In this document: piece by piece, positions 3,370-61,596 of the stretch
Layout: each line of letters begins with the position of its first letter
How positions within the stretch are numbered: position 1 is the first letter of the stretch
From: a virus
Length of the DNA: 61,596 nucleotides
Strand: one strand, 5' to 3'
Virus record (IMG/VR): IMGVR_UViG_3300005366_000004
Coordinates: 1 to 61,596 of that record
Notes under the pieces: model-generated
Told to the model about the DNA's origin: nothing
The model's database searches: none
The model's input: the letters and a program-made list of their open reading frames with translations, nothing else
Translations under genes and position numbers: made by a program

Positions 3370-3582
3370 ATGAGCCCAGCCAGAAAGCTAAGCACCGGTT
3401 TCGCGCCGTCCGAGTACAGTTTCGCAATGGCAATGGCAGCAATTCTCGGCACCAAACGGAAGCGCAAGCCAGTGCCGCCAACCGAAGAGGAAAAGGTCCG
3501 TATCGCGGCAGACAAGGAGCGCGCCGACTGGAACGCGGAAGTCGAGCGCCGCAAGGCTGAGAAGAAAGGGAGGAATAGATGA
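3370..3582 (+). CDS. Small basic hypothetical protein
   Basis: 70 residues with a basic centre (GTKRKRKPVPP) and a charged helical C-terminus. GGAGGAATAG precedes the ATG. It overlaps the next gene by 4 bases (ATGA). A longer ORF in another frame (3312-3560) has no ribosome site and was not used. Function unknown. Confidence 0.6.
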   Translation: MSPARKLSTGFAPSEYSFAMAMAAILGTKRKRKPVPPTEEEKVRIAADKERADWNAEVERRKAEKKGRNR

Positions 3583-4094
3583 CAACCGAACAGAATGCGA
3601 CGGAACTCAAGCCGTGCCCATTTTGCGGAGACGCAGCATCGATCTACGGCGTCGAAACTCAGAATTTCCATAGCGTCGAGTGCATAGATTGCGGGGCGTC
3701 TGGCAAAGTTTACAGATCGAAAGAAGAAGCCATCGCCGCCTGGAACAAGCGAGCACAGCAGCCGATGCAACGAGGCAATGTCCCGCTTAGTGCTGACGGC
3801 AAATCTGTTTTCATCGAAGGCTTCGGGGAAGTTGCACTTGATTACAAGGCTGGACGAGATGCGCAGCCGACGCCAGTACCAGCGGGGCAAGTGCCTGCAA
3901 TAGTGCACGATGCGCTCTTGCGGGCGTATTCAGCACTGGTCTCATGCAGCATCAAGAAAAATAGCGATTTCCGCGAAGACCAATTCTATTTCAACGAGGT
4001 CAAGGTAAGAGACGCCATGCAGGCAATCAAGCCTATCCTTGATGCGATACCAGCCGCCCCGCAGCCTGAAAGGAGGAATGATGCAAATCGTTGA
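3579..4094 (+). CDS. Lar-like restriction alleviation zinc-ribbon protein
   Basis: 171 residues. The N-terminus matches the Lar family: LKPCPFCGD (first CxxC), then HSVECIDCGASG (second CxxC) and the closing SKEEAIAAWNKRA. Lar of the Rac prophage reduces host type I restriction. Here the ribbon covers residues 10-60 and is followed by a ~110-residue extension without a known motif. GGAGGAATAG precedes the start. Restriction alleviation is inferred from the family only; many phage Lar-like proteins are untested. Confidence 0.8.
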   Translation: MTTEQNATELKPCPFCGDAASIYGVETQNFHSVECIDCGASGKVYRSKEEAIAAWNKRAQQPMQRGNVPLSADGKSVFIEGFGEVALDYKAGRDAQPTPVPAGQVPAIVHDALLRAYSALVSCSIKKNSDFREDQFYFNEVKVRDAMQAIKPILDAIPAAPQPERRNDANR

Positions 4095-58580: not shown

Positions 58581-58629
58581 CAGTATCAATAACCTAATGC
58601 GGGCAGAGTCTCCGCGAGAAAGGCAAGAA

Positions 58630-59397
58630 ATGAACGAAATAATCACACAATCGCGGGCAAGCTTCTCTCTCGCGCCTCAGGATCTTGACCAAGCACTCAG
58701 GTTCGCCGAAATGCTCTCCAAGTCAAGCATCGTCCCGAAGGACTTCCAGAACAATCCCGGCAATATCCTCGTTGCGGTTCAGTGGGGGATGGAACTCGGC
58801 CTTCAGCCAATGCAAGCAATGCAGAACATCGCCGTAATCAATGGCCGCCCTTCCCTTTGGGGCGATGCAGTTATCGGACTTGTTCGTTCTTCGTCGGTTT
58901 GCGAATACGTCATCGAAGAAAACCTTGAAGACAAGGCGATTTGCCGCGTAAAGCGTCGCGGCGAGGACGAGCAAGTTCGCATTTTCACCAAGGAGGATGC
59001 TCAGAAGGCCGGGCTTATTGGCAAGCAAGGTCCATGGACTCAGTACCCGAAACGAATGATGCAAATGAGGGCGCGATCATGGGCGTTACGCGATGTGTTC
59101 CCAGACGTGTTGCGCGGCATGCCGATTGCAGAAGAAGTCATGGACATTGAATCGCGGGACATAACTCCAATGCCGCAACGCCTGACAGGGGCGCAGGCAG
59201 CAGAGGCAGCGCGGCTATCCGCCCCGATTGACTCCGAAGAGCGAAGGCAACTGATCATCGAGCTTGAAAAAGTCATCCGCGAAAGCGGCCAAGGTGCCTA
59301 CGCAGAACGGTGGAAGGGATTGACGGCAGCTCAGCGCAAGATGGTCGGCAAGGAAGAGCACGAACGAATCTGGTCAATGGGAGATGCAAATGAGTGA
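58630..59397 (+). CDS. recT: RecT-family single-strand annealing protein
   Basis: 255 residues from ATG 58630 (AAAGG upstream). LSKSSIVPKDFQNNPGNILVAVQWGMELGLQPMQAMQNIAVINGRPSLWGDAVIGLVRSS is the RecT core, followed by WTQYPKRMMQMRARSWALRDVFPDVLRGMPIAEEV. Anneals homologous single strands, with the exonuclease next door, as a phage recombination pair. Confidence 0.92.
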   Translation: MNEIITQSRASFSLAPQDLDQALRFAEMLSKSSIVPKDFQNNPGNILVAVQWGMELGLQPMQAMQNIAVINGRPSLWGDAVIGLVRSSSVCEYVIEENLEDKAICRVKRRGEDEQVRIFTKEDAQKAGLIGKQGPWTQYPKRMMQMRARSWALRDVFPDVLRGMPIAEEVMDIESRDITPMPQRLTGAQAAEAARLSAPIDSEERRQLIIELEKVIRESGQGAYAERWKGLTAAQRKMVGKEEHERIWSMGDANE

Positions 59398-60013
59398 GCT
59401 TCAGCGAACTGAGGATTGGCATCTGGCCCGCGCAGGGAAGTTCACCGGCTCAAAGTTCTGCGACGTAATGGCCCGCAGCAAGAAGAATGGCGAGCCGCTG
59501 AAGGCGTACAACGATCTTGTTTGGCAGCTTGTCGTCGAGCGCATGACAGGACAGCCAGTGGAAGGGCCAGTCGGTCATGCTCTCAAGTGGGGAACAGAGG
59601 TTGAGCCGTACGCCCGCGAGGCATACGAGCTGGAAACCGGAAACATTGTGAGCGAAGCGGGCTTTGTGACTCACCCGAAGTTCGGATTTGCTGGAGCATC
59701 GCCTGACGGCTTGATTGGTGACGACGGCGGCTTGGAAATGAAATGCCCGAAGGATTCCCGTATTCACCTGGAGCGCTTTTCAGAAGGCATCCCAGAGGAA
59801 TACGTTCCTCAAGTGCAGGGCAACCTGTGGGTGACGAGTCGGAGGTGGTGGGACTTCGTTTCGTACGATCCGCGCATGCCCGAATCTCACCGGATTTATA
59901 TTCAGCGCATTGAGCGCGACGAAAGGTACATCGCGGAACTGGAGACGGCAATCTTGGCGGCGGAAGCGGTTGTACAGGCAAAACTCGAATACCTACTTAA
60001 AACGGCGGCTTAA
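59390..60013 (+). CDS. YqaJ-type (lambda Exo-like) exonuclease
   Basis: 207 residues from ATG 59390, overlapping recT. RTEDWHLARAGKFTGSKFCDVM at the N-terminus and GASPDGLIGDDGGLEMKCPKDSRIHLERF give Asp, Glu and Lys of the PD-(D/E)xK exonuclease site. 5'-3' resection that feeds RecT. Confidence 0.92.
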   Translation: MSELQRTEDWHLARAGKFTGSKFCDVMARSKKNGEPLKAYNDLVWQLVVERMTGQPVEGPVGHALKWGTEVEPYAREAYELETGNIVSEAGFVTHPKFGFAGASPDGLIGDDGGLEMKCPKDSRIHLERFSEGIPEEYVPQVQGNLWVTSRRWWDFVSYDPRMPESHRIYIQRIERDERYIAELETAILAAEAVVQAKLEYLLKTAA

Positions 60014-60015
60014 TC

Positions 60016-60324
60016 ATGGATTTCATCGCCATCCCCGCCGAAGTTTTGCAGTCTTCCGAGTATCAAGAACTAACGCTCGGCAACAAGCATCTTCTGATCG
60101 AGCTTTACGCGATGTTCGGGGACTGCGAGAGATTCACAATTGATTTGGAAAATCCAGTCTTGTACAAGCAGCCACAGAAGGCGCATATGGGTAGGAAAGT
60201 GATGGCACTGGTGAATTCTGGTCTCCTGAAAACGGTTGACCTTACAAAGAGTGGGAAATGTCATTACAAGCGAGTGTTCACCTTTAAGTATCCGGCAACG
60301 GAAGCATTTGAAAGGGCAGCATAA
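60016..60324 (+). CDS. 102-aa hypothetical protein
   Basis: FIAIPAEVLQSSEYQELTLGNKHLLIELYAMFGDCERFTIDL ... ALVNSGLLKTVDLTKSGKCHYKRVFTFKY: winged-helix-like. Between exonuclease and NinB; function unknown. Confidence 0.65.
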   Translation: MDFIAIPAEVLQSSEYQELTLGNKHLLIELYAMFGDCERFTIDLENPVLYKQPQKAHMGRKVMALVNSGLLKTVDLTKSGKCHYKRVFTFKYPATEAFERAA

Positions 60325-60326
60325 CC

Positions 60327-60731
60327 ATGAACAAGACGATTACATTGCGCGGCGAAAGCAATGCACAACAGCTTTGGAGTTTTCTCCGTGCGAATTGGCG
60401 CGCAATGGCCGACGCAGGCAAGCCGCTCGCAGTCAACATCACCGAAGCCAAGAGCAAGCGCAGCAGTCAGCAGAATAGATTTCACTTCGCCCGAATGGAA
60501 CACTTAAGCGAGAGTGCGTGGGTGAATGGCGCAACATTTTCAAAAGAAGCTTGGCACGAGTTCTTTGCCGACCGTTTTGCGGCAAAAACTGAAGTGCGCC
60601 TCCCAGATGGCGAGATAAAGCTAGTTCGTCAAAGTACTTCCGATATGAACGTGGAGGAATTCTCGGCATTCTGCACAAAAATCGATGTGTATTGCTCTCA
60701 GAGCCTTGGAATTGATCTAGGTGAAATATGA
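60327..60731 (+). CDS. ninB: NinB-family recombination protein
   Basis: 134 residues. ITLRGESNAQQLWSFLRANWRAMADAGKPLAVNITEAKSKRSSQQNRFHFARMEHLSE is the NinB core, ending KIDVYCSQSLGIDLGEI. NinB (lambda Orf) aids recombination by binding SSB and DNA ends. The C-terminus just before the HNH gene resembles the peptide encoded after that gene, so this 3' end may be the result of an insertion. Confidence 0.9.
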   Translation: MNKTITLRGESNAQQLWSFLRANWRAMADAGKPLAVNITEAKSKRSSQQNRFHFARMEHLSESAWVNGATFSKEAWHEFFADRFAAKTEVRLPDGEIKLVRQSTSDMNVEEFSAFCTKIDVYCSQSLGIDLGEI

Positions 60732-61393
60732 CAAAAAGTATCGCCGGTCAGCAGTTTGGTCGCCTCGTCGCATTAGAGCGGGTTGGCATGCAAAACAGAA
60801 AATCATTATGGAAATGTAAGTGTGATTGCGGCGGCATCAAGGTGGTCCGAAGCGATCACCTCTGCAGCGGGAAAATTGTCTCGTGCGGTTGCTATTTCAA
60901 GGAGGTAATGTCGAAGCGAATGACAACCCACGGGATGACAAATAGCCGCGTCTACAGAATATGGCATGACATGATCAATAGATGCCACTACGAGAAGTAC
61001 CCTGAGAGGCATCTGTACGGCGGTCGTGGGATCAAGGTATGCACTAGATGGAGAGATTCGTTCCAAGACTTTCTAGCTGATATGGGCGAGCCGGATGGAA
61101 AACAAAGTATTGACCGGATAGACGTGAATGGTGATTACGAGCCAGGAAACTGTAGATGGGCAGATGCGAGCACTCAGGCATTAAATAGGAGGCCGCCAAG
61201 GCACACCGCGTCATCGCGATTGATAACGAATAACGGTGCAACCAAATCGCTTTCCGAGTGGTCCCGGCAATGCGGCTTATCGAGAAAGACCATCGAAGGC
61301 AGGTTGCGGCGTAAATGGAACATTGAAGATGCGCTAACACTTCCGCCAAAGCCGCCAAAGTCGCCTCGTTATAAGAGGTCGCAGAATGATTAA
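60728..61393 (+). CDS. HNH-type homing endonuclease-like protein inserted after ninB
   Basis: 221 residues. GRLVALERVGMQNRKSLWKCKCDCGGIKVVRSDHLCSGKIVSCGCYFKEV is a Cys-rich N-terminal zinc domain; YGGRGIKVCTRWRDSFQDFLADMGEPDGKQSIDRIDVNGDYEPGNCRWADAS is the HNH-like core (DRID, Asn-Tyr, CRW) of a common family of mobile phage nucleases. The C-terminal part is an AP2/HTH-like DNA-binding helix set. The ATGA overlap with ninB and the duplicated ninB tail behind it mark it as a recent insertion. Confidence 0.85.
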   Translation: MTKSIAGQQFGRLVALERVGMQNRKSLWKCKCDCGGIKVVRSDHLCSGKIVSCGCYFKEVMSKRMTTHGMTNSRVYRIWHDMINRCHYEKYPERHLYGGRGIKVCTRWRDSFQDFLADMGEPDGKQSIDRIDVNGDYEPGNCRWADASTQALNRRPPRHTASSRLITNNGATKSLSEWSRQCGLSRKTIEGRLRRKWNIEDALTLPPKPPKSPRYKRSQND

Positions 61394-61445
61394 CTACGTG
61401 TACTGCTCGCAGGAACTCGGGCTGGATCTTGGCGAAGCAGCATGA
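61386..61445 (+). pseudogene. Orphan ninB 3' end after the HNH gene
   Basis: Encodes MINYVYCSQELGLDLGEAA. The stretch VYCSQELGLDLGE matches VYCSQSLGIDLGE at the end of NinB but with many silent differences, so it is not a recent copy of that sequence. Most likely it is the original ninB end, left behind when the nuclease gene arrived with its own version of the 3' end. Confidence 0.75.
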
Positions 61446-61486
61446 CTTGCACCGTGGAGCTTGAAAGCAAATTGGAGGGAGACGAG

Positions 61487-61596
61487 ATGAACGAACAGAT
61501 GAAGCAAGTGCTGGAAGTGGCGAGGTCATACGTCAAATTGCAGAACGATGCCGAAGGAATGTTTGAGGGATTTGGCGGACGCAAGCCACGGCCAAG
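61487..61596 (+). CDS. 5' part of the gene that continues at base 1
   Basis: NEQMKQVLEVARSYVKLQNDAEGMFEGFGGRKPRP, then runs off the end two bases into a codon. Joining to base 1 keeps the frame and gives 447 nt with a stop at 335-337. GGAGG lies 8 bases upstream of ATG 61487; ATG 61442 in the same frame, overlapping the orphan ninB stop, is an alternative start. Unknown function. Confidence 0.75.
   Translation, partial: MNEQMKQVLEVARSYVKLQNDAEGMFEGFGGRKPRP

Follow-up and report, generated by a model that had tools for sequence, protein, structure and literature searches.

A phage HNH endonuclease gene at the 3' end of ninB, followed downstream by a second, differently spelled ninB end

The window analysed here, a single metagenomic record from IMG/VR, is linear and 61,596 bases long, with a recombination operon near its right end. 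The genes and features of this region are listed below, with the two putative ninB ends named according to the interpretation developed in the text.

58597-59397, RecT-like annealing protein
59384-60013, YqaJ/exonuclease
60016-60324, 102-aa protein without known relatives, between the exonuclease gene and ninB
60327-60731, + strand, ninB (NinB/Orf recombination mediator), complete ORF, 134 aa (Pfam NinB 1.6e-12; phrog_72 2.4e-23)
60687-60731, + strand, present ninB 3' end, VYCSQSLGIDLGEI-stop, putative substitute tail, whose true left limit may reach further into ninB
60728-61393, + strand, HNH endonuclease gene, 221 aa (phrog_374 4.5e-70; AlphaFold2; family alignment)
61386-61397, + strand, right junction zone (ATGATTAACTAC), which holds the HNH stop codon and is without ninB homology
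61398-61445, + strand, orphan ninB 3' end, VYCSQELGLDLGEAA-stop, putative native tail
61442-61596, + strand, next gene, truncated at the end of the record, with its ATG overlapping the orphan stop as ATGA

The 102-aa gene at 60016-60324 had no match in Pfam or PHROG, and its GC content (0.47) was below that of its neighbours. The ninB ORF ended KIDVYCSQSLGIDLGEI*, and its product scored 47.8 bits against PF05772, where the curated cut-off is 23.8, placing it in the NinB family. The HNH gene started within the ninB stop codon, the two overlapping as ATGA. At the other side of the HNH gene, positions 61386-61445 encoded MINYVYCSQELGLDLGEAA*, in which homology to ninB extended from VYCSQ onward only (61398-61445). 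The residues N-Y ahead of VYCSQ conflict with the ninB family, where position 119 is I/V and position 120 is Q/E in 72 of 72 relatives, and the right junction was therefore placed within about 61386-61398. Among ninB genes without an adjacent HNH gene, the stop codon overlapped a start codon as ATGA in 56 of 73 distinct cases, so the same overlap between the orphan stop and the next gene is the junction expected of an uninterrupted ninB and its downstream neighbour.

The comparison of the ninB tail with the 206 bp following the HNH gene gave a score of 62 (BLOSUM62). The highest score among 1165 other 206-bp stretches of the window, taken from both strands, was 36. A further control was built from HNH loci, nearly all from viral contigs, by pairing mismatched upstream and downstream sequences; its 99% value was 50 with 90 loci and 42 with 157 loci. 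A few control values were larger, up to 128, and probably reflect near-identical contigs and tandem HNH genes. The repeat of the ninB tail after the HNH gene is real and not a chance match. The preliminary description, which had stated that the peptide at the end of ninB recurs behind the HNH gene with different codons, was correct on this point, and also in stating that the host gene is intact with the second end left as a fragment: the 134-aa ORF is complete, and VYCSQELGLDLGEAA-stop lies downstream of the HNH gene.

The repeat spans the last 13-15 codons of ninB. Over 13 codons, the present and orphan tails differed at 11 of 39 bases (28%), 8 of which were third positions, while 11 of 13 residues were common to both and 2 differed. 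Random substitution yields conservation of this kind with a probability of 5e-5 to 8e-5. Because the protein was kept despite the third-position changes, the tails diverged as working C-termini rather than by decay after a duplication, and divergence under purifying selection is supported by the pattern of substitutions. Both tails carry C at position 123, a residue absent there from all 72 relatives, of which 68 have A; the tails are accordingly sister alleles within a single ninB lineage. At position 126, E, the commonest residue in the family, is found in the orphan tail, and S, which was not among the residues listed for relatives, in the present one. The GC content was 44% in the present tail and 59% in the orphan tail, and base matches of the tails to relatives were confounded by GC.

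When ninB codon 120 was joined to position 61398, a complete NinB resulted, which scored 167.3 bits against the family profile versus 166.5 bits for the present protein. The orphan tail was thus favoured by 0.8 bits, and the relatives barely separate the two. At the residue level, 33 relatives were closer to the orphan and 2 to the present tail, with 39 ties, and the difference came mostly from E126. The nearest ninB among the relatives was that of L002 (70% identical), and that of L003 was 50% identical; both are without an HNH gene, and both favoured the orphan tail (7 versus 6 residues for L002, 6 versus 4 for L003). The earlier expectation that relatives would fit the orphan better therefore held in direction and was weak in strength for ninB. 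We infer that 61398-61445 is probably the resident ninB end. Neither a closer ninB/HNH relative nor a further case of a tail copy was found in ~400 Burkholderiales genomes searched for each of NinB and HNH, or in ~400 genomes of the phylum searched for HNH. Degenerate DNA patterns for the VYCSQ tail, run against all viral contigs, likewise found no ninB.

The HNH protein was assigned to the phrog_374 HNH endonucleases (4.5e-70). In an alignment of 30 members, the invariant residues Y97, G101, W108, F115, R130, Y137 and N141 were all kept in the window protein. The AlphaFold2 model had a mean pLDDT of 90.5 and predicted an N-terminal Zn-ribbon-like part (13-47), a beta-beta-alpha element in the HNH core (127-152) and a C-terminal HTH-like part (165-204); strands predicted at 127-130 and 142-145 and a helix at 147-152 make this element a candidate HNH (beta-beta-alpha metal) fold. 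Foldseek gave no match in the PDB at E 0.001. For the central part, the best solved match was the HNH restriction enzyme PacI (3ldy_A; Z 6.1, rmsd 2.3 over 72 residues), which is suggestive only. These results support the view that the gene encodes an intact member of a family of mobile-type phage nucleases.

The same layout was observed in 3 of 157 testable HNH loci of the family, namely the window, L258 and L269, and a tail copy was present at none of 19 further prophage HNH loci; the layout is therefore not the rule for this family. In L258, a phiKZ gp042-like protein of 261 aa ends DDKESYYRHIKLTSSGV-stop and is followed by the HNH gene and then by DKESFYRHIKLTSSGV-stop. Over 16 codons including the stop, 15 of 16 were the same in translation while 15 of 48 bases differed, 10 of them at third positions, and none of 100,000 simulations was as conserved. 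In L269, a putatively ASCH-type phage protein ends INGEGAWSLNPWVWVVSFHRMEGENGRS-stop and is followed by the HNH gene and then by INGPGSWDANPWVWVVEFKKLG-stop. Its two tails shared 13 of 21 residues (P 3e-5). Measured against 17 HNH-less relatives, the downstream copy of L269 fitted the family better than the present tail by 5.4 bits (247.0 versus 241.6). It matched relatives such as L374, L375 and L378 at 17-19 of 22 residues, and the present tail resembled a minority sublineage (L371, L381). We conclude with fair confidence that the displaced copy in L269 is the native end.

Three further candidates, L270 (score 52), L361 (49) and L041 (44), were rejected as low-complexity or chance matches by their look, L041 after inspection. 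Two other arrangements were recorded at gene starts. In L068, a terL-like gene (named by eye) has the HNH gene at its 5' end, in a mirror image of the ninB case: an orphan, old-looking start (MLDLSPKQKLSLMES...) precedes the HNH gene and a full new start (MLDLSLKQKHTLINS...) follows it (2886-2930 and ~3500-3560). The score of L068, 42, equals the 99% control level and is statistically only suggestive. In L027 and L028, TTTTTTATGTTCAATTTTA and a hairpin-like sequence preceding it occur on both sides of the HNH gene (2940-2990 and 3604-3660), as if the HNH gene had brought with it the leader and start of the gene that follows, in a second copy.

The ninB stop was also occupied in other genomes. 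Both a prophage of Paraburkholderia bannensis (L099, also L176) and L177 have an HNH gene of the family placed precisely within the ATGA that links ninB to its downstream neighbour, at the following positions.

L099, 2863-3483, HNH gene at the ninB site
L177, 2899-3513, HNH gene at the ninB site

L100 has the empty site, with flanks 88% and 86% identical to those of L099, so that for this pair the site is seen to be empty in a relative. The L099 and L177 nucleases belong to the same family as the window HNH and occupy the same ATGA position; unlike it, they are without the N-terminal ribbon and have an extra C-terminal domain (AP2-like by eye). Both insertions are clean, without a tail copy. 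Because clean HNH insertions are found there as well, the ninB stop is a recurrent address, and the tail copy one of two ways to use it. Family HNH genes were also noted 0.6-0.8 kb downstream of ninB in L092/L113 (3430-4077) and L175 (3607-4386). The neighbourhood of ninB may be a hotspot for HNH genes of this family. A tree of the HNH proteins, made by a quick method and poorly resolved, grouped the window, L258 and L269 proteins neither with one another nor with the ninB-site proteins of L099 and L177, and was not taken as evidence.

The explanation that we consider probable is that the gene of a free-standing homing-type HNH nuclease entered ninB at its 3' end, bringing along a copy of that end in different codons, and that the native end was displaced. 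The cassette would consist of the differently spelled ninB 3' end, the ATGA and the HNH gene. It would have joined ninB in frame, leaving NinB with a full C-terminus, as is seen in the intact ORF. The second 3' end, which is present downstream of the HNH stop and is presumably the resident one, would have been pushed there as an untranslated or irrelevant remnant. The substitution pattern suggests that the imported tail came from the ninB of a diverged sister phage, an origin that would account for a protein sequence kept with changed third positions. The nuclease would likely cut ninB alleles that have no HNH gene, in the region of codons 119-124, and the cassette would be copied in when the break is repaired from an HNH-carrying genome. 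Through its altered codons, which probably mask the cut site, the carrier allele would escape cleavage by its own nuclease. Cutting, homing and self-protection are putative for the window HNH.

A mobile nuclease with a substitute 3' end had been proposed in the preliminary description. The intact HNH gene of a mobile-type family, the silent-biased divergence of the tails and the same layout in L258 and L269 agree with this proposal; the part that was not supported is the import of the 3' end alone, since the imported tract may reach further left into ninB. The statement that the site can be mapped to the base was too strong as well: the right junction is a zone (~61386-61398), and locating the left junction requires an insert-free sister allele. 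The imported tract may be the tail alone or much of ninB, the left junction not being visible.

This length is the only point that separates the explanation above from its main rival, a mosaic exchange, which we regard as unlikely. A larger stretch, comprising all of ninB and the HNH gene and perhaps more upstream, would have come from a sister phage and been joined within the resident ninB tail, with the HNH gene marking the boundary and carrying no dedicated tail. HNH genes have been reported at boundaries of genetic exchange (PMC10448857), the invisible left junction and a ninB GC3 close to that of the neighbours fit such an exchange, and co-conversion after any homing event would blur the left edge anyway. 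Against it, the host ORF and the ATGA coupling were kept intact, and in L269 the relatives that the present tail resembles are not those that the gene body resembles, which points to a switch near the tail at that locus. A recombination breakpoint at ninB codon 46 had been suspected from the identity to L002, and was set aside when L002 and L003 showed a similar contrast by eye; higher conservation of the ninB N-terminus may be explanation enough.

A short segment present on both sides of an insert could also arise if the ninB tail had been doubled on insertion of the HNH gene and the copies had then drifted. The orphan would in that case be free of protein selection, yet with 28% of bases different the frame and 11 of 13 residues were kept (P ~5e-5 by random substitution), which makes this target duplication very improbable. 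We give equally little credence to a tandem ninB, of which the second copy was deleted save for its tail, with the HNH gene between the copies: two functional-looking tails would follow from it, but no further ninB sequence lies between the HNH gene and the orphan, tandem ninB was seen in none of the examined relatives, and the same layout occurs at two other, unrelated genes. Least probable of all is a group I intron that, once spliced out, would connect ninB with the orphan tail, since, common as HNH genes are in such introns, ninB is complete before the insert and each tail has its own stop, leaving splicing unneeded, and a search of 60000-61596 against Rfam, run to E 5, yielded a single snoRNA match attributed to chance and no recognizable group I intron.

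The layout of the window matches that of the fungal mitochondrial mobile ORFs (mORFs) described in Allomyces atp6 and in Glomus atp6, atp9, cox2 and nad3, where an endonuclease ORF near the 3' end of a gene comes with a foreign in-frame C-terminus and the native C-terminus is displaced downstream (PMC3630166). In both, an in-frame C-terminus is followed by an endonuclease ORF and then by a displaced second C-terminus. The two C-termini of Glomus atp6 are 63.5% identical in DNA and 91% in protein (PMC3630166). The mORFs encode LAGLIDADG or GIY-YIG nucleases, reside in mitochondria and have had their expression confirmed by RT-PCR (PMC3630166), whereas the window element is a phage PHROG 374 HNH gene, ATGA-coupled, with a tail of 13-15 codons, and is known from its sequence. 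The window element would work like an mORF and is not filed as one, its nuclease being HNH and not LAGLIDADG or GIY-YIG.

Among phage systems, the free-standing Mob and Seg homing endonucleases (HNH/GIY-YIG) of T4-like phages have their genes beside or within a conserved phage gene, as in the window, and spread by double-strand break repair with co-conversion (PMC2988022). Their in-gene insertions, unlike that of the window, interrupt the gene that they enter (mobE in nrdA, mobA in gene 60), and the term 'duplicat' is absent from the review of these endonucleases (PMC2988022). Cluster J mycobacteriophages resemble the window in having HNH genes inserted at gene ends (Courthouse 46, Omega 51), and clean insertions are described there along with one altered gene end (PMC3706429). 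The altered end goes with Omega 51: the 3' end of lysin A is a new one, rewritten with the loss of 35 bp, but, in contrast to the window, a second, displaced copy of the former end is not mentioned (PMC3706429). An account of the tail-copy layout in phages was not found in the open-access papers searched, which is weak evidence of its absence.

Phage nucleases seem to have used this layout repeatedly to enter genes while leaving them whole, because two unrelated phage genes (in L258 and L269) show the same arrangement as ninB. We are evenly divided on a broader proposal, according to which PHROG 374 HNH nucleases would repeatedly form gene-end-restoring cassettes with a silently altered target end, at the 3' end in ninB, presumed ASCH-type and phiKZ gp042-like genes and at the 5' end in one terL locus. 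A single event would both rebuild the target and protect it from cutting, and the old ends left stranded would record the cut sites of uncharacterised nucleases. Such ends would give direct, testable cut-site predictions for each nuclease. They also carry a warning for annotation, in that certain phage genes may end in foreign codons, and short orphan ORFs after HNH genes may be relics and not genes. For the phage, the arrangement would mean that an intron-less selfish nuclease can occupy the end of a recombination-operon gene without harming its target.
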